64,000 bases of DNA, taken from positions 62,001 through 126,000 of the forward strand of contig NZ_JAHLPV010000003.1 of NCBI RefSeq assembly GCF_018918095.1, read 5' to 3'. Position numbers and translations under genes: made by a program. The notes below the pieces were generated by a model. It did not search any database, was not told the origin of the DNA, and saw nothing but the letters and a program-made list of their open reading frames with translations. Numbering within the stretch: position 1 is the stretch's first letter; every line of letters begins with the position of its first letter. Shown here piece after piece: positions 12,801 through 53,526 of the stretch. The DNA comes from Acetivibrio sp. MSJd-27. GTDB lineage: Bacteria; Bacillota; Clostridia; UMGS1840; HGM11507.

Positions 12801-12979
12801 CAAAACCCTATCAGTTCCGCGGAACTCTGACACAGGTTTACGAGTTTAACTGCAAAACCGGAAAGCTGATCCAGTCGGATACCAGCGCAATCCCTGTGAT
12901 GGACGATTCCTGCATGGTATTTATCCGCTTCTATTTCGCCCAGAGCAGAGAGGTTGTCATCTACAAAAATTATCAATGA
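9863..12979 (+). CDS. Large secreted protein: F5/8C module plus SLH-type region plus S-layer-like scaffold
   Basis: This 1038-residue protein has a signal peptide (ending ETAAQAG) and an F5/8C module at about 30-175 (NLANDQNVTVTAS, WMELEFAEMLQFNHIVITQY, AKRVRLTVQSY). A Pro-rich linker (PADPTPTQKPQEPDTPQ) leads to two degenerate SLH repeats at about 215-330 (SSAFDGNAAVTRGAFAGILTRL, FQPDAPITTEEAACALLKVLGYGYMA). The remaining 700 or so residues match the scaffold of the SLH proteins at 39182-41902 and 53699-56476: a LLVNALDVPLVEYNF motif after the SLH region, YDLIVIREG, SGTIDSLEEDKLSIGG, IGYVYAF and KIYTQKGHLVL. It is therefore a paralogue of S-layer-like proteins with an added sugar-binding module. 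AGGGAGGT precedes the ATG. Confidence 0.85.
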   Translation: MFRKTMTMLLLTAVITGNILLPNETAAQAGNLANDQNVTVTASKAAAGDSKFLFDGDSAPASGSNTFQFGEADGKCWMELEFAEMLQFNHIVITQYAQDPKIKTFLLEACDTEETVDENGEAVELNYFTLLEGTADGSGLITCHSESVINAKRVRLTVQSYQNGKSGNVALSEFWIGSNGSDPADPTPTQKPQEPDTPQETAPVIGNNSKLLDAMGVMPISDSSAFDGNAAVTRGAFAGILTRLVKANADWADFSVKLRDVKETTPNYKEIQYVFSMGYMTPKSPGKFQPDAPITTEEAACALLKVLGYGYMAADDSRLLGTSGASALLSGVSSLSSALNQNTCAKLLVNALDVPLVEYNFSDGSASVKNGETLLKNVWHMASSVNTVTATHVLSLSGDAGEVGAGVVRMGSTDFNCGAYDMTPYVGYRIKIYYEYTKDMDRPLLTWFESKAQKTVTVSGEDVVSVSRHEIVIQTENEAKDQKFKIPSGAVILYNNRRLVSYTEDVFRPENGQITFVSNDGDGYDLIVIREGIDVMISGGTEEKLLFDNEENMSGLDISDPDSYRITKNGTDITPFEIQQSDVLTIFPNYIKKVDNQTLIGDEADYFEILVSTQSVSGTIDSLEEDKLSIGGSSIEMTEKYRRKYTHKIGQSGTFHLNIYGKIASSTLTARATDSIGYVYAFHCESSEIDPSVSLKIYTQKGHLVLRLADKVSLNGDSRKTAGEALFEGTLFQPDSTGTLAFKPQLIQYSTDSDGNVYKLDTAVPRAENQDKTAGLELSAEKLGRTFLRNGYTFNNDFLVTTNPVIFNVPLDASETDEGLFRIMRVTELATNGNYIVEAFNASDTLLSSLLVIYHNDTSTTPDVKANTVVISKISEKLDKDGGTATYIDFYERGMQDSLPVAPERLNAFKALEPGMVIQYHKNFKGELDGFNLVFDYKDPQSTSLNNSYWALQGVFGTVTKKQGDTFLLATPLPGGGELTKPYQFRGTLTQVYEFNCKTGKLIQSDTSAIPVMDDSCMVFIRFYFAQSREVVIYKNYQ

Positions 12980-13001: not shown

Positions 13002-15218
13002 ATGAAATGTTATGAGAACCGAAGTGCTTTTTCGAAATCTCTGGCTTTCCTTCTGACATTTTTATTGTGCTTTCAACTTTTATGGATCCCTGCCGGTGCG
13101 GAGGCTACCAATATCGTATCCTCCGCGACAATCAGCGGCATCACCAATTCAAAAATGTATGACGGAACCAAAAATGTTGGTTCCAACGCTTCTACTACCA
13201 ACAGTTACAGAGTTGGGGGTAACGGTGTTTCCCGTGAGACGAAATTCGATTTAGGGAAATCCATGCTGCTCACCAGCGTCGTGTTTGCCGGTGCCAGATT
13301 TACATCGGTCACCGTGGTCGCGGCCGAGGACAACGCATACACAAAAGAAGTGGCGACAGCGTCCGTCACATGGGATGATTCAGCCACTGCTACACTTGCT
13401 GAGAAAACCATAGTATTTGCAGACGGTCCCGTTGAGGCACAGTATCTTAAAATTACAGCCGTTACAACAACAGGCCAATCCTATGCCTTTTACAATGAGG
13501 TGGAAATCTATGGACAGGAAAAAGCCTTAGATCCGGAAGTTATTGCTCTGTTCGGCGGCGGTACGGGAACCGAGGAAGATCCTTTTATTGTCTCCACCCC
13601 ACAGCAGTTTATGAACATGAGTGATGAAAGAGTTGCCGGCATGAGCTTCAAAGTGACCGCGGACATCACCCTGCCGGACGAGTACGAACCTTTTGCCTTC
13701 TCCGGCAAACTCGCGGGGGCCGACGCGTCGAATTTGAAAACCATCCGTGTTCATATCAATAAACCGGCGCAGAACGTTGGGGAAGAATTGGAAGTGATTC
13801 CGGAAAATGTTGGACTGTTCAGCGAAGCGTCCGGCGGCGTACAGATTTCCAATCTGCGGCTGACCGGATCGGTGACCGGAGGAAAATTTGTGGGCGGCTT
13901 TATCGGAAAGGCTCCCAGCGGAACCTCTTCCGGCGCAAAGCTGGAAAACTGTGTCAACGAGGCGGATGTCACCGGCTATGAGGCAGTTGGCGGATTTGCG
14001 GGGAGAATTTTTGACGGAACCCACAACATCACACTTAACAAGCTGATCAACAAGGGCTCTGTAAACGCGACGGTCAATGCAGGAGGAATCATAGCCACCT
14101 CCAAAGCCGCGATCACCAACTGTGCCAATCTGGGCGCCGTCACAGCCACAAACGTCGGAAACGGCACCGCGGGTATCGTCGGATGGAATTACGGCAATGT
14201 GTCATTCTGCTATAACAGCGGAGATATTAGAGGCACAGGCAATGTGGGCGGTATTGTGGGCTATCATTCCCAGACATCAAGAACGGTTGCATCCTGCTAT
14301 AACAACGGTGACATTGTCAACATAAGCGCAGACGGCACCGCCGGCGGAATTATCGGGGCTGTTCAAAGCGGAAAAACCGGTGTTTCCCTCAACAACAGCT
14401 ACAACACCGGAAAAATCGGAGACGCTCAAACCTTCCATCCGGTCTTCGGGTCCGGCGAGATCGCCATCACCGGCTGTCTGTATCTTTCCCCCAGTGCGCA
14501 GGACGATGCGGTTGACGGAACACTGCCCAAAACGCTGAGTGAGCTGGCATCCGCCGCCACAGATCTGGGCAGCGCCTTCACAGCCCCTGCCGGAACTTAC
14601 CAGTTTCCTGAAATATCTGCAAATCTAAACCGGTCGGATTACAAGGTATATACCGTGACCGTGACAGCCGGTGCAAATGGAACGGCGTCTCCTGCCGGCA
14701 CGAACTATGTCAAAGGAGGCACCACCTTTACGGTTTCGCTTCTGCCAAGTAATGCGTATCAGGTTGCAGAGCTGACCTTCAATGAAGTTCCTGTCCCGGG
14801 CGTTTCCGGCAGCTATACCACCAATCCCATCACTGGAGACGCTGTGATTGCCGTCACTTTTGAAGAAAAAACGGCTGCCCCTCCGGAGATCACAACCTAT
14901 GCCAATTCTTTTGTCTATGAGGAAGGGCAAACCGGAAGTGTAACCTTCGGAAAGGTAGTTGACGGAAACGGTTATACCGTTGAGGGTTATGGGATACTCT
15001 TCTCCATGACCGACAGCGATCCAACTCTGGAAAAGGGAGCTTTGCAGCTTGCCGCAAAAGAACCGCTCAGCGCAAACGGAAATTTCGGTGTAGAGCTTGT
15101 CGGCCAACTGCTCAGCGGAAAAACTTATTATACAAGAGCTTACGTTATCTATAAAAACACGGACTCCGGAGAAACCAAAACTGAATACGGAGACGTATCT
15201 GTCATTACATTAAACTGA
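13002..15218 (+). CDS. Secreted F5/8C and GLUG-repeat protein with a 112-residue C-terminal domain
   Basis: This 738-residue protein has a signal peptide ending about AGAEA, an F5/8C-like jelly-roll at about 35-170 (RETKFDLGKSMLLTSVVFAG, EAQYLKITAVTTTGQSYAFYNEVEIYG), and then a beta-helix region at about 185-500 beginning GTGTEEDPFIVSTPQQFMNM. That region contains repeats of the GLUG/peptidase-A26 kind (VGGFIGKAPSG, VGGFAGRIF, AGGIIATS, VGGIVGYHSQ, AGGIIGAVQS). A 'bacterial repeat' (VTVTAGANGTASPAGTNYVKGG) follows, then a 112-residue tail (PPEITTYANS to the end). That tail is shared with the 1046-aa protein at 30281-33421. GLUG proteins are usually adhesins. There is no SLH, LPXTG or stalk domain, so the tail may be the surface-attachment part. 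The gene lies 22 bp after its neighbour, with GGGAGG before the ATG. Confidence 0.85.
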   Translation: MKCYENRSAFSKSLAFLLTFLLCFQLLWIPAGAEATNIVSSATISGITNSKMYDGTKNVGSNASTTNSYRVGGNGVSRETKFDLGKSMLLTSVVFAGARFTSVTVVAAEDNAYTKEVATASVTWDDSATATLAEKTIVFADGPVEAQYLKITAVTTTGQSYAFYNEVEIYGQEKALDPEVIALFGGGTGTEEDPFIVSTPQQFMNMSDERVAGMSFKVTADITLPDEYEPFAFSGKLAGADASNLKTIRVHINKPAQNVGEELEVIPENVGLFSEASGGVQISNLRLTGSVTGGKFVGGFIGKAPSGTSSGAKLENCVNEADVTGYEAVGGFAGRIFDGTHNITLNKLINKGSVNATVNAGGIIATSKAAITNCANLGAVTATNVGNGTAGIVGWNYGNVSFCYNSGDIRGTGNVGGIVGYHSQTSRTVASCYNNGDIVNISADGTAGGIIGAVQSGKTGVSLNNSYNTGKIGDAQTFHPVFGSGEIAITGCLYLSPSAQDDAVDGTLPKTLSELASAATDLGSAFTAPAGTYQFPEISANLNRSDYKVYTVTVTAGANGTASPAGTNYVKGGTTFTVSLLPSNAYQVAELTFNEVPVPGVSGSYTTNPITGDAVIAVTFEEKTAAPPEITTYANSFVYEEGQTGSVTFGKVVDGNGYTVEGYGILFSMTDSDPTLEKGALQLAAKEPLSANGNFGVELVGQLLSGKTYYTRAYVIYKNTDSGETKTEYGDVSVITLN

Positions 15219-15262: not shown

Positions 15263-17962
15263 ATGGCTCCGTGCCAAACTTATCAGATACATCCGGCAAG
15301 ACGGCTGGCAGCCGTCCTGCTTGCAGGACTCCTCCTTCTCACCCTATGCCCTTCGGACTGCTTCCGGGTATCAGCGGAGGAGATTAACCTGGCGGCGGAC
15401 GCCGCTGTGATTGCCTCGGAAAGCTTCAGCTCCCCCTCTGCCATCAACGACGGAGAAAGAGCCCCGGCTTCCTATTCAGGCGGGATGGCGGCATTTTCAA
15501 GGACAGTGCCCGCTTCCATCGGATACTCCTTTTCGGACACAGTGACCATAGAAAAGGTGGTTGTGTACGAATACTCTACCAGAATTGGTGACTTCACCCT
15601 TGAAGCCGCTACGGATGAAGGTTTTACCGACATCACGGGCAGGTTATCCGACAGTGGGATTGCGGCCAGCAAAAACGGAAGCAGAACGCTGAACTTTGAT
15701 ACTCCCGTCTCCGCGAAATATCTGCGGCTGACGATAAACAGTGTAAAGTCGGCAGGCTCCGTTTTTATCAGTGAAATTGAGGTCTATGCGCCGACGGGCG
15801 AATCGCAGAAAGGCGTGAATGTGGCGGCGGACGCCAGAGTTTTATCCTCCAACGCATCGGGCGCCGCCAATATCAATGACGGCGCGAAGGGCGGGGACGT
15901 GTCCACATCATCCCAGACTACCTTTTTCAACGGAATCGGAGAGGATCGCTGGATCGGCTTTGACTTCGGCCAGGCAATCCCCCTTACCGGCATGACCGTT
16001 TATGAATACAGCAAAACATCAAGACCTATTGAAGGCTTCGTGATTGAAACAGCGGACGACGAAGCCTTTACCCTGAATGTGCAGGCTGCCGCGAACGTTA
16101 CGGACGGCGGCATAGGCGGGGAGGGCCGGGAGCTTTCCTTCTCTCCTTCGCTGACCGCGCGGTACATTCGCTTCCGCCCGACTTCCTATCAGAATCCATC
16201 CAATCCGGGCGTTATCTATTTTGCAGAAATTGAGGTGTTTTCCCCCTCCGCCCTGCCGCCCAAGCCGGACAACGAGCCAAACGATTCTGCCAATCTGGCA
16301 CGCCAGGGAAGCGCGATTTCCGGAAAGAGTTCCGCTCGTTTGGGCTACCTGAATGACGGAGAAAAATTCATCTCCAACAACCAGGAGAATTTCTCCTTGA
16401 ATTCTACCCTGAGCGATGCTCACTGGTTTGGCATCGATCTGGGCAGAAATATGTATTTCAACACAGTGGAGATTTATGAATACACCCAATCCCTTAAAAT
16501 ACAGAGCTTTGAAGTACAGTACTCCGAGGATGGAAACAGCTATAAAACCCTTGCAAGGATCGAGGAAAAAGGAACAGACCGCGGAAAAGCCGTGATTCAG
16601 TTTGACGCGGTCTATGCGCGGTATGTCCGGGTGATGCTTCGGAAGATAAGCGGAACCGTCTATCTGGACGAGATGGAGGTTTACTATAAAACAAAAAGAA
16701 ACGAAGGAAACCAAAACCTTGTCCCGGCTTCCGCCGTCTCCTCCGCAACCGGAGGGGACAGTGCGACACCGTCCGCCAACGCGCATGACAGAAACGGCGG
16801 TACAGTGTGGAAAACCAATGGTTCCGAGGCGGAACTGACTTTACACCTGCCGCAGGAAGCTCCATTGAACAGACTGGCTCTCACCCTCTTTCAGCCGGAA
16901 AATATAGGCGGCATTTCCGTCTTTGCCGGAACGTCCCCCTCTTCTCTGGAAGCTGTCTATCAGGACGATTTCCAACGGGAAGAAAAGCAGATTCTCTTCC
17001 AAACTCCCCGTTCTGTGAAAGAGATCAAAGTTCGTTTGGAGGGTCTTTCCGGAACCGCCGGCATTTGTGAGATAGAGGCTTATCTGGACGCATCCTCAGA
17101 CGCTGCGGAACAGTATATGTACACCGTCAGTGAAGCGGTAAACCGCTATGTGCGGCAGCAGCTGGCAGCCTCTTCACAGGCTGCTCTGCCCAACCTGAAC
17201 AGTTGTGTCTGGTATTCGGACAACAGTGCCGCCGCCGCGGTCAACGGTTATATGCTCGCCGTTCTGGATCCCCATGCGGGCGCTTCCGTGTCCGCCACGC
17301 TGTCTTTCGGGGAGGGCTGCACAAAACAGGTCACCATTCCGGTGGGAAATCTGGATTCCCAGTCTTTCTCCCCCGTTCTGACCGAGACAGGCACCCAGTA
17401 TCATTTTGCTGAGCTGGACAAATGCTCCTTTGCGGACATTCAAAACAACTGGGCTTATGACTATATCTATAAGCTGGCTTCCCTGAAGCTGATAAACGGC
17501 ATATCTCCCACAGCCTTTGAACCGGATCGCTGTATTACAAGAGCCGAGTTCGTGAAGCTGGTTGTGGATGCGCTTGACCTGTATGAGGCAGACGCTACCA
17601 GCAACTTTGCAGACGTGTTTGCCAGCAGCTGGAGCTATCCATATATCGCGTCGCTGGAATACCACGGCGCTTTGGGAGAGGAACTGAACGGTGATTTTCA
17701 TCCCGATTCGTTTATCACAAGGGAAGATATGGCTTTTATCGCTTACAATGCGGTGAATGCCGCCTCTCTGGAATTGAAAACCGGTGAGACTGCTGTTTAC
17801 AGCGATTATGATTCCATTTCCCCCTATGCAAGGGACGGAGTGGAATTCTTAAGCGCAGCCGGCCTTCTCAAAGGAAAAGGCAGCGGGCATTTTGCCCCCA
17901 AAGATTTTCTGACTAGAAGCGAAGCGGCAAAAATCATCTATCTGTTGTACAGCGCATATTAA
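15263..17962 (+). CDS. Surface protein with three F5/8C modules and C-terminal SLH repeats
   Basis: This 899-residue protein has a signal peptide (residues 1 to about 39, ending RVSAEE). F5/8C modules follow at about 40-175, 185-330 and 340-475. Each has the NLA start, a 'VxVYEYS' or 'VEIYEYT' strand and a 'xxYIRF / YLRLTI / YVRVML' strand. A further jelly-roll-like segment lies at about 490-620. SLH repeats occupy the last 180 or so residues (FADIQNNWAYDYIYKLASLKLINGI, FEPDRCITRAEFVKLVVDAL, HPDSFITREDMAFIAYNAV, FAPKDFLTRSEAAKIIYLLYSAY). SLH repeats bind pyruvylated cell-wall polymer, so this should display sugar-binding modules on the wall. No catalytic domain was recognised. GGAAGGG precedes the ATG. 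Confidence 0.88.
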   Translation: MAPCQTYQIHPARRLAAVLLAGLLLLTLCPSDCFRVSAEEINLAADAAVIASESFSSPSAINDGERAPASYSGGMAAFSRTVPASIGYSFSDTVTIEKVVVYEYSTRIGDFTLEAATDEGFTDITGRLSDSGIAASKNGSRTLNFDTPVSAKYLRLTINSVKSAGSVFISEIEVYAPTGESQKGVNVAADARVLSSNASGAANINDGAKGGDVSTSSQTTFFNGIGEDRWIGFDFGQAIPLTGMTVYEYSKTSRPIEGFVIETADDEAFTLNVQAAANVTDGGIGGEGRELSFSPSLTARYIRFRPTSYQNPSNPGVIYFAEIEVFSPSALPPKPDNEPNDSANLARQGSAISGKSSARLGYLNDGEKFISNNQENFSLNSTLSDAHWFGIDLGRNMYFNTVEIYEYTQSLKIQSFEVQYSEDGNSYKTLARIEEKGTDRGKAVIQFDAVYARYVRVMLRKISGTVYLDEMEVYYKTKRNEGNQNLVPASAVSSATGGDSATPSANAHDRNGGTVWKTNGSEAELTLHLPQEAPLNRLALTLFQPENIGGISVFAGTSPSSLEAVYQDDFQREEKQILFQTPRSVKEIKVRLEGLSGTAGICEIEAYLDASSDAAEQYMYTVSEAVNRYVRQQLAASSQAALPNLNSCVWYSDNSAAAAVNGYMLAVLDPHAGASVSATLSFGEGCTKQVTIPVGNLDSQSFSPVLTETGTQYHFAELDKCSFADIQNNWAYDYIYKLASLKLINGISPTAFEPDRCITRAEFVKLVVDALDLYEADATSNFADVFASSWSYPYIASLEYHGALGEELNGDFHPDSFITREDMAFIAYNAVNAASLELKTGETAVYSDYDSISPYARDGVEFLSAAGLLKGKGSGHFAPKDFLTRSEAAKIIYLLYSAY

Positions 17963-18179: not shown

Positions 18180-20912
18180 ATGAAGAATTCATTTCCTATG
18201 TATCTATGGAAAGGCACTGCGCTTGCCGCAGCATTTTTTTTACTCTTTTTCCAGATGGTCTTTCCTTTCGCAGCTGACTATGACAGTCACTGGGCAAAAG
18301 AGGACATTGAATATCTAATAGAAGAAAATATCGTGGAAGGCACCCCGGAAGGCGTTTTGCCGGAGCACTCACTGCTTCGTGCGGAATTGGCCAAACTCGT
18401 GAACCGCACAGCAGGATTCCAGGAAACGGCGGCGGATAACTTTCCCGACGTTTCTGACGAAGCCTGGTACGCGGGCGAGATGGCGATCGCAAAAAAAGCA
18501 GGTTACCTGCAGGGCGATCCAAACGGACACGGGAATCCCGAGGCCGCCGTCACCCGCTCTGAACTGATGACTGTCCTGGCCAGAGTTTACCGGCTGGACA
18601 CCTCGGATACAAGCCTTCCCTACTATAAGGATGAAGGTGAAATCCCCTTCTGGGCCCGCGGAGCAATTCAAGCTTTGGTGAAAAAAGGACTGGTCAATGG
18701 ATACGACGATGGCACGATCCGTCCGAACCAGCTAGTTACCCGGGCGGAATGCTTTTCCGTTCTGGCGCGGATGATGCGATCGGGGATAACCAAGGAAAAT
18801 CCGCCCGCCGAAACGGTTTCCCCATCACCTTCGCCTATCCCCGGCGTTTCGGGCGGTACAGTTCATACCGGATCCGGAAGTGCCGGAGGAAGCTCCGGTT
18901 CCTCTTCCTCCTCCAAACCTGCCAAGCCATCCGGGCTGTTCCTGTCAAAAGAGAACGGTAAGCTGATTGCTTCCTGGAATCCGGTTCCCCTCGCTTCCGG
19001 TTACTGTCTCAGCCTGTTCATAAACGGACAGGCGGTTCTCTCCGGCACAGCCGCAGATGAGCCCAGACTGGATGTGACCTCTTCTATAAACGCCGCGGAG
19101 GGAGGCGATATCATGTTCCAGGTTCAGACGCTCTCCTCGGGCAGGCGCTCTTCCTGGGCAGTCTCCCCCTCTTACCGCAAGCTGGAGACTCCCCTGATTT
19201 CTGTGTCGGAGGAAGGACTGTGCATCACCTCGGTTTCCGGTGCAGACAGCTATCATGTCAAAGCGCTGGGACAGAAAAATTTCGCCGGAGAATTTTCCCT
19301 TCCGGCGGATACCCTCTCCGTTTCCCCAGACGAATTAATGCAAATATTACAGCCCCCTGAAAGCGGATCTTACTCCTTGATGGTTCAGGCGGCAGCAGAC
19401 AGCACGGCATTCGATTCCAAGTGGTCACAGAGCGCTGAAATTGTGTTCAGCCGACCGGAAATGCCCGGCAACGTCACCGGACTTTCCGCTGTCCCAGGCG
19501 ACGGAGCGGTAACTCTCAGCTGGACCGAGCCGGAAAATGCGGAGGAGAAAGGCTTTGCAGGTGTCACCATTATGTGTGAGCCCGGCGGAAAAATCCTTTC
19601 TGCAGACAAGGGAACCATCTCATTCACCGTGGAAGGATTAATCAACGGAACGGAATACCACTTCACTGTGAAATCGGTTGGCCCATCAGGACTGCTCTCA
19701 AACGGCGTTTCCGTTTCAGCGGTTCCGGAAGTACCCGGGAAACCCTCCATCACCGGCGGAACCGTTACCTCCTACAGCAGTATCCCCCTGGCGGATCATG
19801 TGGATTTCCGCGAGCTGAACTTCACTTTAGACAGAGAGAACCAGTCGGTGAAATATGTATCCTTCGATCCCAACAGCGGCTATGTCCTCGTTCCGTTTCT
19901 GGCGCAGGATACTGTCCTTGGTGGGCAAACCGTCATAGAGATGGCGCGCGAACTGGAAAGCAGAGGCTATGAGGTTATCGCAGGCGTCAACGCAGACTTT
20001 TTCAATATGGACAGCGCCCTCTACGGCGTGCCTCAAGGTATGATGGTGATCGACGGCGAACTTATCTGCTCCCAGCTGGAGAGTGGCGTGGGCGTTCCCA
20101 CCCGCCACGGTCTGGGAATCACGGTGGACAACAAACTGGCGTTGACTCAGTTCAACCAGTCCTCCAACAACTGCGGCCCCAAGCTGATAAAACAGCTCCG
20201 CGTCGGCAGTACTGCCTATGACGTTGCAACCATCAACCGGCCAATGCAGTTCTCCAAGGGTTCCTTCTCCGGTATCTCTATGTTTACAAGGCACTATGCC
20301 GGAAATATCACGGCGGATATGCTGGGGGAAAACAGTTTGCTCTGCGAAGTGGACGGCGGCCGGCTGAATATCAACCAAACATCCAGTCTTCGCATCCTGC
20401 GTGCGCTCGAATCCTCCCGCGATTACGGCTCCCTGTCCGAAAGCCAGGTTATCCTTACCCTGAAGGACGTCCCGTCGGATATTCTGAACCACTTTCAAAG
20501 TCTGAAACAGGACGATGTTCTGACAATAAATCTTCAGATTGACGAAGCCGACAGCAATTTCAAAAACGTCAGAACCGTTCTTGGCTCCATGTACACGCCT
20601 CTGATCGGAGGCAATGTGAAGCAGTATGCACCCACGGTTGTCGCCGGAAAAAAAGACTGCCGGATCTCCTTTGGTATCCGCGCGGACGGCACTATGGTTC
20701 TGGCATACCTGGACGGCGATGACACCGCCTCCAGAGGCTTTAATATCACAGAGGAAGGAAATCTGATGAAGGATCTCGGCTGTACCGACGCCGTCAATTT
20801 TGACGCCGGGGGCTCGGCTTCCCTGATCCTTCGCAGAGACGGTGTGCTCACTGCCGAGGTCAGTTACGGAAGAAGGGTGGCAAATGCACTGTTTCTATGC
20901 CGGGCGAAATAA
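18180..20912 (+). CDS. SLH-anchored phosphodiester glycosidase (NAGPA/DUF2233 family) with FN3-like modules
   Basis: This 910-residue protein has a signal peptide (1 to about 33), three SLH repeats at about 34-205 (DSHWAKEDIEYLIEENIVEG, SLLRAELAKLVNRTAG, VTRSELMTVLARVY, LVTRAECFSVLARMM), and a Gly/Ser/Pro linker at about 208-250. Two or more FN3-like modules follow (PAKPSGLFLSKENGKLIASWNP, PGNVTGLSAVPGDGAVTLSWTE). A C-terminal phosphodiester glycosidase domain at about 545-905 has VIAGVNADFFNMDSALYGVPQGM, the internal LLCEVDGG and the family's 'DGGGSS'-like VNFDAGGSASLI. The family removes sugar-phosphate caps (as in the human uncovering enzyme) or acts on exopolysaccharide, so a substrate with phospho-linked sugars, such as a wall polymer or mannan, is possible. 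AAGGAGG precedes the ATG. It is followed by a bidirectional terminator. Confidence 0.9.
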   Translation: MKNSFPMYLWKGTALAAAFFLLFFQMVFPFAADYDSHWAKEDIEYLIEENIVEGTPEGVLPEHSLLRAELAKLVNRTAGFQETAADNFPDVSDEAWYAGEMAIAKKAGYLQGDPNGHGNPEAAVTRSELMTVLARVYRLDTSDTSLPYYKDEGEIPFWARGAIQALVKKGLVNGYDDGTIRPNQLVTRAECFSVLARMMRSGITKENPPAETVSPSPSPIPGVSGGTVHTGSGSAGGSSGSSSSSKPAKPSGLFLSKENGKLIASWNPVPLASGYCLSLFINGQAVLSGTAADEPRLDVTSSINAAEGGDIMFQVQTLSSGRRSSWAVSPSYRKLETPLISVSEEGLCITSVSGADSYHVKALGQKNFAGEFSLPADTLSVSPDELMQILQPPESGSYSLMVQAAADSTAFDSKWSQSAEIVFSRPEMPGNVTGLSAVPGDGAVTLSWTEPENAEEKGFAGVTIMCEPGGKILSADKGTISFTVEGLINGTEYHFTVKSVGPSGLLSNGVSVSAVPEVPGKPSITGGTVTSYSSIPLADHVDFRELNFTLDRENQSVKYVSFDPNSGYVLVPFLAQDTVLGGQTVIEMARELESRGYEVIAGVNADFFNMDSALYGVPQGMMVIDGELICSQLESGVGVPTRHGLGITVDNKLALTQFNQSSNNCGPKLIKQLRVGSTAYDVATINRPMQFSKGSFSGISMFTRHYAGNITADMLGENSLLCEVDGGRLNINQTSSLRILRALESSRDYGSLSESQVILTLKDVPSDILNHFQSLKQDDVLTINLQIDEADSNFKNVRTVLGSMYTPLIGGNVKQYAPTVVAGKKDCRISFGIRADGTMVLAYLDGDDTASRGFNITEEGNLMKDLGCTDAVNFDAGGSASLILRRDGVLTAEVSYGRRVANALFLCRAK

Positions 20913-30280: not shown

Positions 30281-33200
30281 CTACTGCAAGCTGATTGTTT
30301 TAATCTCGCCGTATACTGTTTTTTCTGTTCCATCCGCTGCCTGGTAGATCACATAGGTTCTTGTATAGTAAGTGGTATTCAGCAGAAGATCACCTTTGAT
30401 CTCTATCCCGTAATGGCCGTTGGCGCTGAGCGCCTTTTCTGCCTTCAGCTTATAACAGTTCTCTTTTCCAATCTGAGGATCCGCACTGTCGGTTGCGGAA
30501 TAAACGATGCCGTATTCCTTCACGGTTGTCTTGCTTCCCTCTGCAACTGTTCCGAAGGTGACGCTGTTCGTCTTGTCATCAGGAACATAGGTTTTGTCAA
30601 AGGTATTGATCGTCGGCGGTGTCTCCGGAAGTTCCGCAAAGGTCACCTCCACGGTGGTATCCGCGTCAACCGTCACGGAGAAGTTCTCCTTGATCGGCTG
30701 TTCTACACTGTTCACGGTAATTTTACTGATTTCCCAGCCGTCCGCCGGAACTGCCGTGATAGTCTGCTGGCTGCCTTTGATGACAGAAGTAGTTCCAGAG
30801 GGAGTAACCGTTCCGTTTCCGGTGCTTGTCACCGTCAGATTTTTCTTTTCAATGGCATAGGATACTTTCACATTGTCGGCTTTAAAATTGTAACCTCCCC
30901 AATTGTAATGCGCCAGTATAAATACGCGAACATATTTTGTTCCAGCCGGAGCGGTTCTGGTATGTTCAAAATGAGACCAGGTATTTTTTTCGGGTGCGGG
31001 ATTTGTATCGCCTCTGAAAACGCCTCTACAGTTCACTCCATTCGCATCATTTTTCTGATGGTCGTTGTTCCATGTCCCGGCGCTTCCCCATGCCGTACCC
31101 GTCCAAAGCTGTTTATCCGCATTATAAAATGCGAAAGACATCCCTAAAACACCTGTTGTATTATAATCAAAAGAAAGGGTATACGCAGTTTTGGAATTGG
31201 TGTTATACTCCGGTGTTTCAATCAGATCGCTGCCCAGGAACAAGCCTTCATTCCCATCATTTTTATAGATATGAAGCACATTTCCCGCGTCGCCGTCCGC
31301 CGCTTTTCTCTCATCGTCCGTCAGAATGTCAAAATACTTGCTGTCGTCATAATACTGATTTGCTTCGATGGAGAACTGCGGCGTCCAGCCTACCAGATTG
31401 GTGTTTTTTGTACCTGCTGCAGTTCTCTCAAAGCCAGGGTTTTTCACATTTAAATAACCTACGGTATCTGTATCCGCCGGTTTTTCGTTTGGTACTTCCT
31501 TGATGGTTACCTGAATTGTGTCAGTGGTGACACCACCCAAGCCATCGTCCGCCGTGATGTTGAGGACAGCAGCCTTTGCTGCAATGTCTTCCGCACTCGG
31601 CAGATAGGTATAGGAAGAACCGGACACGGTTCCCTTATCTGCGCGGAAGGTCATGACGTCCTCATCCACATCCGTGAAATAGGTTGACAGATCCAGCTCG
31701 ATTCTTTCATCTGCCCAGATGGTTTTGCTTCCAATGGGTGATGGAACGGTAGGTGCGCTGTTTACATCCGGCGCTTTCGGTGTAACTGTCTGAATGATTC
31801 CCACAGAACCGTTGTTGGAGGAATCATAGGATACCAGTTTGATTTCATAAGCCTGATTGTTAGTCAAATCGCTGAGTGTGTATGCCGTGGTGCCTTTTTT
31901 CAGAATGGCGGTCATCACATTGTCCACATACAGCTTGGTCATGGTATAGTCCGCATCACTCGGTTCGGTGAAGCTAATGTCAATCTTTGCGTTCCCCGCT
32001 TTAATCTGTGGATCGGCAACATCGGAAGGCGCTGTGATATCAGCTGCCATCGGTGTTTCCGCAATGGTTACATCATCAACATGAATCAGGTAGTTATTTC
32101 TTGCGGAAGTGCCGTAGAAAGCGATTGCAACACTGACCGCATCCTTTGGAGCGGTATAATTCTCGGTGCTGAGAGTTGTATAGGTGGATTTTCCCCCGTC
32201 ATTCAGCACTTTGTTCGCCGCAATGCCATTCGGCATTCCATAGTGATCTCCCTCATTGGGATTCAGCCATTCCTGTGTTGCAAAGTCATACACATTTCCT
32301 TCTGCATTATAGAAGTTGACCGATGTCGGGATGCCCCGGCTTGCCTTATAGCTGTATGTAAACTGATACCGGTTGCCCGGGACAACGGTTATCTTATTTG
32401 AGATAACGCCCAAAGCATAGGTTGCACTGTTATCATGAATGTACAAGCTTTGATCGCCCTCGTCCGCTTTGATTTCATAGTACAGATCAGTGTCGTTTAA
32501 CGCAGCGCCTGCATTAACCGCATATGTCCATCCGGTGATTGTTCCGTTTTTCGCCGGAACGTCCGCCTCGAAGTCACCGTTTGTGACAGAAGCGCCTGAT
32601 ACTTCAATGTCCGGCTGAATATAGGACATTTTTACATTATCGACTGCGAAATCGTATTTAGGATTGCTACCCGCGACGAAAAAGATTTTCGCTTTGGTTG
32701 CTCCCACCGGCGCAGTTTTTGGAAGATTAACGGCTCCCCATTTTCCGGATTGAATCGGATATTCCTTTCCGTCGTTTTTCCACTCGTATATATTTCTAGC
32801 GCCGTCATTCCACTGTGCATTCAGAGGACAAACCGCGGAAGCCGAGGGCAGCGCCGTCCATGCACTATTCTTGTCATTATAGTACTGATTAGCATCATTG
32901 TAAAAAATGATCCCAGCCCACATACGAGCATTCCCTTTGAAATATAGATCCTGCCCGCCGCTTCCATCATATCCCGGCGCAATGTAATCAAAGTCGACTT
33001 CGTAATCCACTGAGGTTGATTTGCCAAAAGCCGGCAAATTGAGATATTCCGTAGCCAAAATAATCTGCCCATATCTGTAATCTCCTAAGCTGGTGTTTGT
33101 GTCACAATTATCATAAATATGAGCTACATTTGAGTTGTTCCCGGAACCGCCGTTTATTACCTGGTGAAACAGCTTGTCCCCAGCTACAGGATTTGTCTCT

Positions 33201-33421
33201 TTGCTATTGACATAGGCACGGTATTCCACATCCCATCCCGAAATAGGATCCGTATAGGTTTTCTGAGTAATGTCAACGGCCTTGCTCTGTTCAAAATCGC
33301 CGTTGGGAACTGTGATAGAAACCTTTTCCCCCGGCGCCGGTACCACCGCTGTAACACCAAATGCAGGGAACATTGTAAACAGCATTGCAACGATCGTGAT
33401 GAAGCCTATTGTTCTTTTCAT
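30281..33421 (-). CDS. Large secreted lectin-like protein with 'NGDFE' jelly-roll modules and the shared 112-residue C-terminal domain
   Basis: This is a 1046-residue protein. An ATG at 33421 after GGGAGG is chosen; an in-frame TTG two codons earlier is less likely. A signal peptide (KRTIGFITIVAMLFTMFPAFG) is followed by three carbohydrate-binding-like modules, each opening with 'xNGDFE' or 'xNPGFE' (about 37-280, 285-470 and 665-860). An FN3 module (about 475-565) and a cadherin-like module (WADERIELDLSTYFTDVDEDVMTF) lie between. A bacterial repeat (LTVTSTGNGTVTPSGTTSVIKG) and the 112-residue tail (PPTINTFDKT to the end) close it. The first module is strongly similar to that of the 776-aa protein at 41917-44247, and the tail to the protein at 13002-15218. 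No catalytic domain, SLH or LPXTG was seen. It may be an adhesin or a substrate-binding component. Confidence 0.87.
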   Translation of the reverse strand: MKRTIGFITIVAMLFTMFPAFGVTAVVPAPGEKVSITVPNGDFEQSKAVDITQKTYTDPISGWDVEYRAYVNSKETNPVAGDKLFHQVINGGSGNNSNVAHIYDNCDTNTSLGDYRYGQIILATEYLNLPAFGKSTSVDYEVDFDYIAPGYDGSGGQDLYFKGNARMWAGIIFYNDANQYYNDKNSAWTALPSASAVCPLNAQWNDGARNIYEWKNDGKEYPIQSGKWGAVNLPKTAPVGATKAKIFFVAGSNPKYDFAVDNVKMSYIQPDIEVSGASVTNGDFEADVPAKNGTITGWTYAVNAGAALNDTDLYYEIKADEGDQSLYIHDNSATYALGVISNKITVVPGNRYQFTYSYKASRGIPTSVNFYNAEGNVYDFATQEWLNPNEGDHYGMPNGIAANKVLNDGGKSTYTTLSTENYTAPKDAVSVAIAFYGTSARNNYLIHVDDVTIAETPMAADITAPSDVADPQIKAGNAKIDISFTEPSDADYTMTKLYVDNVMTAILKKGTTAYTLSDLTNNQAYEIKLVSYDSSNNGSVGIIQTVTPKAPDVNSAPTVPSPIGSKTIWADERIELDLSTYFTDVDEDVMTFRADKGTVSGSSYTYLPSAEDIAAKAAVLNITADDGLGGVTTDTIQVTIKEVPNEKPADTDTVGYLNVKNPGFERTAAGTKNTNLVGWTPQFSIEANQYYDDSKYFDILTDDERKAADGDAGNVLHIYKNDGNEGLFLGSDLIETPEYNTNSKTAYTLSFDYNTTGVLGMSFAFYNADKQLWTGTAWGSAGTWNNDHQKNDANGVNCRGVFRGDTNPAPEKNTWSHFEHTRTAPAGTKYVRVFILAHYNWGGYNFKADNVKVSYAIEKKNLTVTSTGNGTVTPSGTTSVIKGSQQTITAVPADGWEISKITVNSVEQPIKENFSVTVDADTTVEVTFAELPETPPTINTFDKTYVPDDKTNSVTFGTVAEGSKTTVKEYGIVYSATDSADPQIGKENCYKLKAEKALSANGHYGIEIKGDLLLNTTYYTRTYVIYQAADGTEKTVYGEIKTISLQ

Positions 33422-41916: not shown

Positions 41917-44247
41917 TCAATATGTAATACTTGTAGGATTCACCATATTGTTCATCCCTATAAAGCTGTCCCATACAAAAATCTTGATGCTGCCGCCCTC
42001 CGACGGGATCTCCATCTGGACGTTGGCGTTGACCTTCTCGTTCATCACGGCGTCCGGATCGCGTCCTGCAAGGACGGCCGGCTTTGACTGGATGCTTTCC
42101 AGTGCGCCGTTCGCGTCATATTTTACCAGGATAAGACGGATTGTCACATCCTCGGTGGTATTGTTGTAGCAGTTTACATTTGCCTGAACAACATCCCCGG
42201 CAGAAAGCACAGACATGTCGGTCACCCGTTCTCCATCACATTCCAGATAGGGTTGAAGAACGGTTAAACCGGCAGGCACGGAGGAGCTCAGCTCTACCTT
42301 ATCAAAACAGCTGGTGCTGTTGTCCCCTGCTTCCACCGTGTTGAAGCAGATTCTCACATAGGCAGCACCCTCTGGAGCCAGATATTCTTTGCTCTTATCC
42401 GCCGTTTCGCCGGTTTTCACCGATTCAACGGAACCCTGTTCGGTAAGCACAGCCGCATCCGCGTTGACAAATTCACCGCGCTGGGTATCGTAAACCTGAC
42501 CAGTCGCGTTAAAGAACTTCAGGTCATAGGCCAAGGAGCTCTGAACGTTATACCGGAAGCTGAGGTTATAGGTCAGTCCGGAAATCACATCGATAGGCTC
42601 CGACCACATCCCGATCATTCTGCCGGGATCCTTGTCCACCAGCTTCAGAGAAAGATGACCGCTTAATTTATTGTCGTCGGACGCCATGTAGGCTATGGTT
42701 CCGTCGGTCTCTACCCCGTTGTAAACCGACCAGCCGGGAACCTCCATAGGCTCCTCGAAATCAGCATTCCGTATGGAAAGAGGCGCGAAGCCGGAAGCGT
42801 CGTCCCCATATTCGATCACAAGGTTGTCAAAGTAAGCGGAGGTTCCGCCCTGATTGACTACCTGGTAAAAAGACATCCGCACGTAGTCGTAATCCCCGGC
42901 GTTGCTGGCGTATTTCACAGGATAGTTATAAGTCTTCCAGTTGTTTGTCAGTTCCTGATAGGCAAACCGATAGTTGTCGGTCCCGGACAAAGCGTACTTG
43001 TCGCTGACACCCAGATATTGTCCACCGGTGAGTTCTCCTGTTTCTGAGTTGTATACAGCCGGAGCGATGCCGGTGGTTCCGCCGGTTCCCTTATTTGTCA
43101 GAACCTTATCATCGGAAGTCCCCGGGATTCCGTCCGCACCGTTCTGATAGAACTGCAGCACATATCTTCCCCGTGTTTTGCCATTCTCTGACCTGCCATC
43201 AAAGGTGACCTGAAAGGATTTCCCTGTTTTATCGCCCTCGGGGAGTAGGATGGGATCGGAATAAATATAAACACCTTTATTGGTTACATCTTTATGGATT
43301 CCCAAGGCCGCCGAACCATCCGCCGCTTTGTCATTGGAAAGGGTATAATACTCGTTCGCGTCAAAGCTGGTGTTGAAATAGGGGCTCCAGCCAGGGATCA
43401 CATGGGTATCTTCAAATTCGCTGTTGGTGATCTTGGCAGCCTGCTTGGGGGAATAGGTAAACCTTACATTGTCCACGGCGAAATCAAACTTGTTGTTGGC
43501 GTTGGCATTGAATAGAATTCTCGCCTTGGTAGCTCCTACAGGAGCGGTTTTCGGCTGCTGAATGGTTCCCCACTCTCCGGATTTGATCGCTACATCGCCG
43601 CCTGAAGCTTGATAGATCACCCGGCAGCCGTCGTTCCATTGGGAATTTAAAGGACGCTCGCCTGTGGGTACTGTTGTCCATGCACCATTCTTCTCATGAT
43701 AGAACTGGTTGGAATCATTATAGAAGATAACGCCGGCCCACATACGGGCAACGCCTTTCACAAACAAATCCTGACCATTGCTTTTATCATAGTCCGGTGC
43801 AATATAATCAAAAATCAGATTGTAATCGATTGACGCCGTTTCGCCCAAAGCCGGCAGCTCAATATAGTCCGACGCCATGATAATCTGGCCGTACCTATGA
43901 TTGCCCAGGGAGGTGTTGCCGTCACAGTTGTCATAGATGTGAGCAACGTTTGTGTCATTCCCGGTACCGTTTTTGGAATTGCCGTTTATGATTTGGTGAA
44001 ACAGCTTTTCACTGGGTTCGGGCGTCATATCCGATTTCGGCATGGAGCGGTACTCCACCTCCCAGCCCGGAATGGCATGCTCATACTTATATTGTGAAAT
44101 GTCCACTGCTGGACTCTGCTCAAAATCCCCGTTCAATATGGGGATTTCTACTGTACCGTCGTCAGCGGAAAGGCCGACGACAGGAGCAAATGCCGCTGCG
44201 CTTAAAATAACAGCACAGACCAGCAAGATGCTTAGTGTTCTCTTCAT
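41917..44247 (-). CDS. Secreted protein with three 'NGDFE/NSEFE' carbohydrate-binding-like modules
   Basis: This 776-residue protein has a signal peptide (MKRTLSILLVCAVILSAAAFAPVVG). Three jelly-roll-like modules open with PILNGDFEQSP (about 36), AKITNSEFEDTHVIPGWSPYF (about 270) and IRNADFEEPMEVPGWSVY (about 495). The first is close to the first module of the 1046-aa protein (VAHIYDNCDGNTSLGNHRYGQIIMAS, FDFAVDNVRFTY). The C-terminus has the strand-rich 'KIFVWDSFIGMNNMVNP' domain that ends many secreted Clostridial proteins, with no SLH or stalk domain. Binding of a glycan is the likely role. It follows the second AraC gene by 17 bp, placing it as the first effector of the operon. Confidence 0.87.
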   Translation of the reverse strand: MKRTLSILLVCAVILSAAAFAPVVGLSADDGTVEIPILNGDFEQSPAVDISQYKYEHAIPGWEVEYRSMPKSDMTPEPSEKLFHQIINGNSKNGTGNDTNVAHIYDNCDGNTSLGNHRYGQIIMASDYIELPALGETASIDYNLIFDYIAPDYDKSNGQDLFVKGVARMWAGVIFYNDSNQFYHEKNGAWTTVPTGERPLNSQWNDGCRVIYQASGGDVAIKSGEWGTIQQPKTAPVGATKARILFNANANNKFDFAVDNVRFTYSPKQAAKITNSEFEDTHVIPGWSPYFNTSFDANEYYTLSNDKAADGSAALGIHKDVTNKGVYIYSDPILLPEGDKTGKSFQVTFDGRSENGKTRGRYVLQFYQNGADGIPGTSDDKVLTNKGTGGTTGIAPAVYNSETGELTGGQYLGVSDKYALSGTDNYRFAYQELTNNWKTYNYPVKYASNAGDYDYVRMSFYQVVNQGGTSAYFDNLVIEYGDDASGFAPLSIRNADFEEPMEVPGWSVYNGVETDGTIAYMASDDNKLSGHLSLKLVDKDPGRMIGMWSEPIDVISGLTYNLSFRYNVQSSLAYDLKFFNATGQVYDTQRGEFVNADAAVLTEQGSVESVKTGETADKSKEYLAPEGAAYVRICFNTVEAGDNSTSCFDKVELSSSVPAGLTVLQPYLECDGERVTDMSVLSAGDVVQANVNCYNNTTEDVTIRLILVKYDANGALESIQSKPAVLAGRDPDAVMNEKVNANVQMEIPSEGGSIKIFVWDSFIGMNNMVNPTSITY

Positions 44248-48588: not shown

Positions 48589-49312
48589 GATAATTTTCCT
48601 CCTTGTCATTTCACACATTTATAATATAAATTTTGTGTACAAGATAGCTAAGAGACAAAAGAGTCCTCCTCTTTTGCAACCGGCAGAATGAAGTACAGTC
48701 TTCTTCTGAATCTCCCCATTCCGGAATAGCATTGCTTATCAAACTGCATTTTTTATAAAAATTGAATTTGCAAGAGGAACTGTCTCTTTTTCAAATACTG
48801 CCTTTTTATAATTATCCAATTCTTCTTTCCTGTACCATCAATATAACAAATATTGCGGTATAAATGAAGTGAATTTTTTGCCAAGCGTACTGCATTTTTT
48901 GTTAAAATATTTTTCAGAAATTTCCTTTTGTATCTCAAGAAGGACAAATCCTGCATATTTCATTTTCCATTTTTCGACAAAAACAATTTGTTTGATCTGT
49001 TTTTTATTAGCGCTGAGCGGGATTGATTCGTATCAAAGAATTTATTTGAGTCGTTTTCTAATTTTATAAAATTGCATTTTTTGAAAATCATTTCTTTCAT
49101 ATTTCTATTTTTTGTTTTTTCTTCTTTTTTCAAAATTGCCACTTTAAATGAATCCAACTTTTTCAAATAAATTTTGATTTTTTTCCAAAATTGGCGAATG
49201 AATCTTTTTTTCATTCTGCAATTTTTGATTTTTTAATATTTCATACCCTATTCCGGAAATCCTTTTTTTCGTTTCCCGTCCCCAGTATCTTAATTGCCCG
49301 TCTCGATACGAT
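48589..49312. other. AT-rich intergenic region without a recognised gene
   Basis: The 724-bp stretch is far richer in A and T than its neighbours. It holds three TGCATTTTTT boxes (near 48744, 48889 and 49074), and its open frames are made of Lys, Asn, Phe and Ile codons, so they are not credible genes. Its left end should carry the promoter of the propeller gene, but no hexamers with standard spacing stood out. No tRNA-like or known riboswitch pattern was seen. Confidence 0.5.
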
Positions 49313-50922: not shown

Positions 50923-53526
50923 TTAATTGAATTTATTTACGATCTCTTCAATAATCGCCTTATCATCCTCTGCATTGAGCGCCTCTCCGTCACTTATCAC
51001 AATAAGTCCCTGATCAACGCCTGTCTCCTGCCAGAAAATTGTCTTTCCTAAACCGCTTTCGACAAAGGCACGAAGCGGAAGCAAGGTACGGTCATTCTCA
51101 TCCGTAAAGGCAGCCACATCAATGGAAATATCCTGCCCATTGACGGTAATCTTTTTCTCGCCAATCACCGTTTTGATTTCCTTGTCGCCGAGTTTTACGG
51201 TAACGGTTTCCGTTGCTTCGTCATAGCCCACTTCCGCACCGAAGCTTTCTGCGATAAAGCGAACCGGGACTACTGTTCTTCCCTCAATTGTTGTAGCTTT
51301 CACCGCTCCGGAGGCATCAATCGGCTTCGCTTCTCCTTTTACCAGTGCTTCCGTTTTGCCAAGCATCAATGCAACGGATTTCGCAAGGACGGTATCCGCT
51401 GATTTTGCATCGTGGGACAGCACAATCTTGGATACGCTTACAATATCGGGATCTACAAAATAGAGATTTCCGTTTTCCACAATATCCAATGTATTCGTTC
51501 CTTTGTTATACAGTTCTTTTGTTTCCTTGGTGTCCATATCAACGGCAGTAATCCGGTTGCCGATGTTTGTATACAGAAGTCCGTCCTGACCAACCGCAAG
51601 GTTATAGACAAGCGCTCTCGTCTTTGTTAAGGTCAATTCAGAGTTTCCGATCGAAACTTCTTTGTTGATTTTCAATGTGGCCGGATCAACAAAAAGAAGG
51701 GTTTTCTGTGTTGCTACCATCAATTCTCCATTGGGAGCGAATTTTGCTTCCCCTGCATAGTACTGCGTCTTTTTGTCAGTTGTCAGCTTAATATCTACTT
51801 CTTTTTCCACTTTTCCGGTTGCATAATCCATCACAAAAAGCTTTGCCGGTGCGTCAATCGGATCAATTCCCAGACCGCCGTAAACATAGGTGGAACCATA
51901 GATTTTTCCGTCTTTGACCGCCACGCCGCCTACGCTCTGGTTTTTGATTGGTTCTGCCACCACCCGGGTTTTCCCGGTTTCCTTATTGTAAAATCCAATG
52001 GCGCCCCCAAGTCTGCCGTAGTCCGGCATAGAAGCCCAGATAACGTCCTCGCCGCCGTCCACCACGACAAGACCTCTGTCCTGATGCTGTTCTTCCATGT
52101 TCGCAACATATTTGGGGTTCTCATTTGTTTTCACCGCTTTGCTGGGATCATATACCTGCAGTCTTGCCTTTCCATACATGCCGCAGTAATATAAGCCGTC
52201 AATTTCCCGAATACCCTCAATCTGAAGGGAGGGGAATTCCAATTTATTTTTATCTGTTTTCGTATCGAAAACAATCGCCTTTGACCCCATATATGCACTG
52301 ACAAGCAATTCATCGTTGATACCTGCTTTCAGAGTCCGTATCTGTGTCGTATTGGCAGGAAGTACATCTTTTATCAATTCAACACTGTTTTTTTCCAGAT
52401 TAATGATAACAATTCCCTCTGTGCCCCCGCCGGCAACGATAGATTTTCCCGGATATTTGGTCTGATCCTTTAAAGTTACAACTTTAGGACTAACCAAATA
52501 CTGGCCGGTACCCATTTTAATTTCAGGGAACTCTTTTATCTCTTTTGTAGCTGGATTGTAAGAATACAAATGGGATTCCTTTGCACCGGCGGGGATGTTA
52601 TGGAAATAAACAACATCTCCGTCAAAATCCGTGAAGTGCAAGTGCAGTGTTTTGGGAATATAGTCAACCCATTCTTCCTTTTCCATGTCAAACACACACA
52701 GATAGTATGCGTTTACAGAACCTGCAATTTTACATCTTGCAAACAGATATTTGCCGGCTGTTGAAATCGCATAGAAATTGTTGACGTCACTTTCCGTGAA
52801 TGTTCCGTCCAGTGCGGGATTTTTCATTTCGGTTGTCTTTTTTGTTTTCACATCGTATTTCACAAAATTCGCGACCGGATCTCCCATGCTGCCCATAAAT
52901 ATTTTGTCATTATAGACGCCCATGGAACGGACATACTTTCCGACGACCATGTTGGAACCGACTGCCTCAAGCTTATCCGTCGCTGCATTGTATTTTACCA
53001 GCATAGCATTCGGATATGTACCAAAGTAGTAGTTGCCCTCCGAATCGAAGACGCCTTGCGTCATGACGGCGCTTTCTTCAAATACCGCCCCGTACCCCTT
53101 CAATTCATCCGTTTTTGGATTATAGCGGTAGAAATTACAGTAGGCCTGCGTTGCGATATTGATAATACCATCCGGCCCCATATCAACCGCATAGCTGACT
53201 TTTGCCGGCAAATCTTTGCCGTCTACAACATTGGTAAGCTCATGCTGAACCGTCACCTTCGCCTGATCCACATTATATGCAAAAAAGATAGCTGGAGGAC
53301 CTGAAGTGACCGCATACACGATCGTCTCACCGTTTTCATCCACCTGGGTTGTACTGCCTAAAATCTGGACGTCACTGATCGGCTTTCCAAGTTTGACCGG
53401 CTCGCTGGCTGTCAAAGAATTTAATTTCTCAGACTGGAAGCCCTCCGCTGAACCGAGTACCGCAAAGCACTGCATACACAGGCAAACCACAAGAAGTACG
53501 CTCAGTAGCATTTTTGTCTTTCTCAT
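50923..53526 (-). CDS. Secreted beta-propeller protein on a Cu-amine-oxidase-N stalk (867 aa)
   Basis: It has a signal peptide (MRKTKMLLSVLLVVCLCMQCFA, ending about GSAEG). A propeller of repeated strands spans about 40-680: GIINIATQAYCNFYRYNPKTDELKGYG, GNYYFGTYPNAMLVKYNAATD, KIFMGSMGDPVANFVKYD, GLYYCGMYGKARLQVYDPSK, GKIYGSTYVYGG, NLYFVDPDIV. Two Cu-amine-oxidase-N repeats end it (VVPVRFIAESFGAEVGYDE, LLPLRAFVESGLGKTIFWQE). It is a paralogue of the 824-aa protein, with the same YPNA motif and a similar stalk. AGGAGA precedes the ATG. The promoter has an extended -10 (TGC TATAAT). A role in glycan binding, sensing or lysis is possible, but nothing in the sequence fixes it. Confidence 0.88.
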   Translation of the reverse strand: MRKTKMLLSVLLVVCLCMQCFAVLGSAEGFQSEKLNSLTASEPVKLGKPISDVQILGSTTQVDENGETIVYAVTSGPPAIFFAYNVDQAKVTVQHELTNVVDGKDLPAKVSYAVDMGPDGIINIATQAYCNFYRYNPKTDELKGYGAVFEESAVMTQGVFDSEGNYYFGTYPNAMLVKYNAATDKLEAVGSNMVVGKYVRSMGVYNDKIFMGSMGDPVANFVKYDVKTKKTTEMKNPALDGTFTESDVNNFYAISTAGKYLFARCKIAGSVNAYYLCVFDMEKEEWVDYIPKTLHLHFTDFDGDVVYFHNIPAGAKESHLYSYNPATKEIKEFPEIKMGTGQYLVSPKVVTLKDQTKYPGKSIVAGGGTEGIVIINLEKNSVELIKDVLPANTTQIRTLKAGINDELLVSAYMGSKAIVFDTKTDKNKLEFPSLQIEGIREIDGLYYCGMYGKARLQVYDPSKAVKTNENPKYVANMEEQHQDRGLVVVDGGEDVIWASMPDYGRLGGAIGFYNKETGKTRVVAEPIKNQSVGGVAVKDGKIYGSTYVYGGLGIDPIDAPAKLFVMDYATGKVEKEVDIKLTTDKKTQYYAGEAKFAPNGELMVATQKTLLFVDPATLKINKEVSIGNSELTLTKTRALVYNLAVGQDGLLYTNIGNRITAVDMDTKETKELYNKGTNTLDIVENGNLYFVDPDIVSVSKIVLSHDAKSADTVLAKSVALMLGKTEALVKGEAKPIDASGAVKATTIEGRTVVPVRFIAESFGAEVGYDEATETVTVKLGDKEIKTVIGEKKITVNGQDISIDVAAFTDENDRTLLPLRAFVESGLGKTIFWQETGVDQGLIVISDGEALNAEDDKAIIEEIVNKFN

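Follow-up and report, generated by a model that had tools for sequence, protein, structure and literature searches.

The SLH domain (PF00395) has an alpha-helical fold. Like the domain described here, hereafter the tail, it is a terminal module found on many different exported heads of the same genome; the two differ in that they show no sequence match and that the tail is predicted to be a beta-sandwich. CuAO-N (PF07833), which has been reported as frequent in wall hydrolases (PMC4137172), occupies the same end of homologous heads as the tail in at least five head families, yet it too has no sequence match to the tail, and the two are found together in one protein (G003_242463). In Bacteroidota, the Ig-like C-terminal domain of T9SS substrates (RgpB CTD) is an export signal (PMC4804311). 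The CTD, like the tail, closes a wide range of cargo proteins with a beta-sandwich of Ig-like type, which for the tail is a prediction, whereas the C-terminal position of the tail is not obligate and the tail has no NCBIfam match.

The motifs GI-YS, G-F/Y and YYxRxY and a predicted all-beta fold are common to the tail and to FN3-like repeats (YYxRAY...YG) of the Bacteroidota type and of other surface proteins, which match PF00041 weakly at best. These repeats, however, are mid-protein or tandem modules and precede SLH triplets in 5 of 11 Bacillota examples, whereas the tail is C-terminal in 69 of 74 close copies and never accompanied by SLH. In 22 of 23 own-genome proteins, the element next to the tail belongs to the InlB B-repeat (PF18998) or is closely related to it; it is a neighbour and not the tail itself. 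Our literature search found no paper describing the tail; a gut phage-display paper mentions B-repeats only in other proteins (PMC10076258).

Results

Two window proteins end in the same domain

The window, the whole stretch of 64,000 nucleotides that was analysed, encodes two otherwise different proteins (proteins 1 and 2, Table 1) that a preliminary description had reported to share a 112-residue C-terminal domain. The coordinates of this domain were correct, and pairwise alignment of the two tails gave 49% identity with small compensating gaps. Both motifs quoted for the tail were present as claimed, and the proteins end in ITLN and ISLQ, each followed by the stop codon. The preceding repeat, also said to be common to both, is the Flg_new_2/InlB B-repeat, with protein 2 scoring above the Pfam cut-off and protein 1 slightly below it (cut-off 23.6 bits). 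When repeat and tail were aligned together, proteins 1 and 2 were 39.9% identical over 188 aa (E=6e-35), and their likeness is therefore not due to chance.

The heads were assigned with varying strength. In protein 1 the F5/8C match (E=3e-4) is below the Pfam cut-off, and the GLUG assignment comes from a paralogue, G000:C3:53604 (53% over 753 aa), in which Glug is found. Protein 2, which starts at the ATG at 33421 with a TTG two codons upstream, gave CBM_4_9 (E=2e-4, below cut-off) and Flg_new_2 (E=2e-8) in Pfam. As the preliminary description had stated, SLH and CuAO-N matches are absent from both proteins, and direct reading shows no LPXTG motif at the end of either. Among the other window proteins, six carry SLH and four carry CuAO-N; the protein at 41917-44247 carries neither.

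The gene of protein 1 lies between two SLH-protein genes on the same strand, one ending 22 bases before it (9863-12979) and one beginning 44 bases after it (15263-17962). Given these short gaps, it is probably co-transcribed with the genes of its anchored neighbours. This context fits either a tail that anchors protein 1 beside its neighbours or a released companion.

Table 1. Positions of the tail, its neighbouring elements and the proteins used for comparison. Positions given as numbers only refer to the window; G000 is the genome to which the window belongs and G003 a relative of the same family.
Feature	Position or locus	Strand	Content and evidence
Gene of protein 1, 738 aa	13002..15218	+	ORF and translation; signal peptide, F5/8C-like domain, GLUG-type repeats, B-repeat, tail
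Gene of protein 2, 1046 aa from ATG	30281..33421	-	Signal peptide, CBM-like and other beta domains, B-repeat, tail
Tail of protein 1, residues 627-738	14880..15215	+	Predicted divergent FN3/Ig-like sandwich; profile comparison, AF2
Tail of protein 2, last 112 residues	30284..30619	-	Translation; one of the 24 genome copies
B-repeat (Flg_new_2, InlB-type), immediately 5' of protein 1 tail	14649..14870	+	PF18998 23.0 bits; custom B-repeat profile E=1.7e-30
B-repeat of protein 2	30632..30841	-	PF18998 40.7 bits
B-repeat and tail cassette of protein 2	30284..30901	-	84% identical to end of G000:C5:96096, head unrelated
Comparison protein without tail	41917..44247	-	Head homologous to protein 2 (47% over 374 aa), other ending
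Comparison protein with CuAO-N at end	50923..53526	-	Head 52% identical over 617 aa to G003_C46, which has the tail
Comparison protein	18180..20912	+	SLH x3, FN3, phosphodiester glycosidase; domain matches
Window CuAO-N proteins	46114-48618, 50923-53526, 21038-23320
Non-C-terminal tail copy	G000:C3:53604		Phosphodiester glycosidase after the tail
Non-C-terminal tail copy	G000:C29:15962		DUF4886 after the tail
Non-C-terminal tail copy	G000:C7:83707		Cassette immediately after signal peptide, i.e. mature N-terminus
Non-C-terminal tail copies	Two G003 proteins		SASA esterase further downstream
FN3-like modules upstream of C-terminal SLH triplets	L177, L182, L184, L185, L187		Other classes of the phylum
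Head families with tail or CuAO-N			Propeller-like; F5/8C-SASA; heparinase-like; G000:C4:25565 type; G000:C4:37112 type
Giant open frames of G329	C1:110571 (L104), C1:750618 (L098), C2:1299059 (L101), C2:2074988 (L100)

The tail is a predicted FN3/Ig-like domain

By sequence, the tail matched nothing in Pfam, NCBIfam or the PDB, and none of 22 tails matched fn3 (PF00041) even at E up to 10. A search with a six-row tail alignment retrieved three related loci, all FN3-like. Comparison of the tail family with Bacteroidota-type FN3-like repeats by hhalign gave P=5e-11 over about 75 aligned columns; because the comparison set had been fetched with motifs of the tail family, the comparison was also run with the fetching motif masked and gave P=2e-5, against P>0.07 for reversed and shuffled controls. 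One of the comparison repeats matches Pfam fn3 weakly (E=0.002). Tandem FN3-like repeats of the Bacteroidota type were also seen on a contig labelled Alphaproteobacteria (L090), which is possibly misbinned.

Structure prediction had been proposed as a check on the domain, and AlphaFold2 returned an all-beta domain of 7-8 strands. From the two window tails alone the model reached pLDDT 70 and pTM 0.65, and with 11 rows pLDDT 84 and pTM 0.79, these rows including presumed FN3-like relatives, so that the second model cannot count as independent evidence of homology. Foldseek against the PDB returned Ig/FN3 domains weakly, none with E below 1e-3. In a quick tree, 28 of 30 mid-protein FN3-like rows fell beyond one branch (SH-aLRT about 90), a weak separation given long branches and few columns.

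An exchange within one protein type points the same way. G000:C3:53604 and the window protein at 18180-20912, a NAGPA protein, have the glycosidase part and linker in common (65% identical over 282 aa), and the tail of the former occupies the FN3 slot of the latter. We therefore predict that the tail is a divergent fibronectin-type-III/Ig-like beta-sandwich. The preliminary description had named a known FN3-like module with no anchoring role as one of the results that would speak against its proposal, and the profile comparison and predicted fold bring the tail close to this.

Tail copies are mostly, not strictly, C-terminal

The two copies first noticed are part of a larger set: the tail occurs 24 times in the window's own genome and 25 times in one relative of the same family, while a second relative has one copy. 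In a sample of the class Clostridia it was found in only 9 of 391 genomes, and its distribution is therefore lineage-restricted and patchy. Family f53 carries it in 8 of 14 genomes, on host ORFs that sometimes exceed 6,500 aa, and other Clostridia families carry it sparsely. One 5.3-Mb Clostridia genome (G329) has four open frames of about 6,600-7,300 codons, each terminated by a tail. The phages, plasmids and viral contigs searched gave no tail match, hence there is no obvious carriage by mobile elements in those sets.

Some copies look degraded. One (L036, G000:C4:82810-83133) has an in-frame TAG inside the domain, and the gene looks decayed or the assembly is in error. Two ORFs of about 35-40 codons (L069, G000:C1:199292-199384; L071, G000:C9:26231-26326) match the tail over its last third only and are probable gene remnants, one of them directly downstream of an intact tail gene.

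Counting close relatives only, and including two short ORF fragments, 69 of 74 copies are C-terminal, in at least four families; they end at most 37 residues from the stop, and most at most 10. The other five have about 260-460 residues beyond the domain, and four of these are truly internal, ahead of catalytic domains. A further 13 more distant FN3-like hits, from other classes of the phylum, were never C-terminal, and an SLH triplet ends 5 of the 11 proteins with such distant modules. Thus, the description of the tail as strictly C-terminal does not hold (5 of 74 close copies depart from it, one of them in the slot of a Pfam-recognised FN3), and the profile search that was to decide the matter found the domain at the end in 69 of 74 cases, elsewhere in the remainder, and mid-protein in distant relatives.

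The tail and its B-repeat are exchanged between heads

Of 23 own-genome proteins tested, 22 have a B-repeat ahead of the tail; in G003 far fewer tails have one, and many lack a detectable one. In f53 proteins the region before the tail ends in LTAVYV-like repeats, List_Bact-like by eye, which the custom B-repeat profile missed. Over its last 207 residues, protein 2 shares 84% identity with the end of G000:C5:96096, and the DNA is 87.5% identical over 554 nt. Judging from such comparisons, the B-repeat and tail move as a cassette between unrelated heads.

Heads also exchange the tail for other endings. At least five head families include one protein with the tail and a second with CuAO-N (Table 1), and GLUG heads are found with N-terminal SLH as well. 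Many exported proteins of the own genome have CuAO-N at or near the C-terminus, and elsewhere the same heads carry the FN3-like tail in its stead. The protein at 41917-44247 ends in a different beta-rich tail that Pfam does not match and that may represent another uncatalogued tail family. Many tail hosts have carbohydrate-related heads (SASA, heparinase-like, chondroitinase B, F5/8C, CBM_4_9); LRR, propeller-like and giant proteins, for which no common substrate is evident, carry the tail too. That the tail is FN3/Ig-like and also modular we consider highly probable.

The tail excludes SLH and nearly excludes CuAO-N

Signal-peptide-like starts were called by a simple heuristic in 819 kb (27% of the genome). 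Of the proteins so marked, 28 have SLH, 21 have CuAO-N, 17 have the tail and 44 lack all three; two more CuAO-N ORFs without a predicted signal bring the CuAO-N total to 23. No protein of this sample combines two of the three modules. For the tail, zero overlap with SLH and CuAO-N has a hypergeometric p=1.4e-5, for which paralogy makes the assumption of independence generous. SLH was absent from all 23 own-genome tail hosts by Pfam and from all 62 hosts by a custom SLH profile, three giant f53 proteins being covered over their last 6,500-6,600 residues. Thus, of the proposed exclusions, that of SLH was borne out, and that of the CuAO-N stalk was breached in 1 of 62 hosts, G003_242463.

Read directly, the tail ends (ITLN, ISLQ etc.) lack an LPXTG motif followed by a hydrophobic stretch and a basic tail, which rules out a covalent sortase tail. 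The own genome has one sortase gene (G000:C9:57145-57660) and seven carrier relatives have none; tail carriers are SLH-rich and almost sortase-free.

Discussion

What is the function of the tail? It is a lineage-specific, uncatalogued and exchangeable FN3-like terminal module, neither a new fold nor a proven anchor. Our leading guess, circumstantially favoured and close to an even chance, is that it serves as a putative non-covalent surface-retention module. Signal-peptide-like starts suggest that the proteins would be exported by Sec; each would then carry a terminal beta-sandwich of predicted fold, usually behind a B-repeat, and this tail may keep the protein attached, through non-covalent contacts, to the cell envelope or to some other protein of the surface, a job like that of SLH. 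The terminal position, the exclusion of SLH, the exchange with CuAO-N and SLH and the near absence of sortase all argue for retention. The tail is terminal and exclusive of other anchors in that 69 of 74 copies are C-terminal, one is at the mature N-terminus and none overlaps with SLH. The copy at the opposite end, right after the signal peptide, counts in favour of retention, and the 4 of 74 close copies that lie before catalytic domains count against it. The fold itself is no anchor, since homologous FN3-like modules lie mid-protein and coexist with SLH. More tentatively, at perhaps one chance in three, an FN3-like module may have been recruited in one branch of the Clostridia as a third non-covalent retention tail alongside SLH and CuAO-N, in which case a single cell would display what it exports by at least three terminal modules that are interchangeable and almost mutually exclusive.

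The main rival is a structural end-cap or spacer on released proteins: a ligand-free FN3-like module that ends or stabilises a beta-helix/B-repeat rod of secreted proteins and is terminal since it was duplicated as a cassette in that arrangement. This would do better with homology and internal copies. Profile comparison relates the tail to FN3-like modules, the tail replaces FN3 in the NAGPA protein, internal copies exist, and wider relatives are tandem, mid-protein modules. It does worse with exclusion. A spacer at a free end has nothing to space, the terminal bias is strong across several families, and at the same end SLH is excluded and CuAO-N exchanged. Alternatively, the same heads could exist in a bound and a released version, with exclusion as the outcome and the tail as the mark of release. 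We regard an end-cap as rather unlikely.

CBMs are typically terminal accessory modules, and the many carbohydrate-related heads would suit a CBM-like tail that binds an external polysaccharide or host glycan and brings these heads to a common substrate. We consider this improbable: the tail is also present on LRR, propeller-like and giant proteins without an evident common substrate, it matches no CBM family, and the exclusion of SLH is left unexplained, whereas CBMs and SLH commonly coexist. Clostridia are taken as monoderm, which counts against a signal for sorting or export that must be C-terminal and is recognised by dedicated machinery, as in T9SS substrates. Although 69 of 74 copies are C-terminal and Bacteroidota offer a parallel in an Ig-like C-terminal domain that directs export (PMC4804311), such a signal is very improbable and was set aside on account of the five non-C-terminal copies, one right after the signal peptide, no NCBIfam model scoring above its cut-off; obligate tail signals, sortase-like or T9SS-like, are thus disfavoured.

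About two dozen exported proteins of this genome end in a domain unnamed in current family libraries. If the tail is only an end-cap, giving it a name would still annotate many proteins and would put on record that an FN3-like fold can be unusually biased in position. Since endings have been swapped naturally on the same heads, retention can be tested directly. If the tail does retain proteins at the surface, it would be a new display module and would go some way towards explaining the display of proteins without SLH in Clostridia that are poor in sortases.
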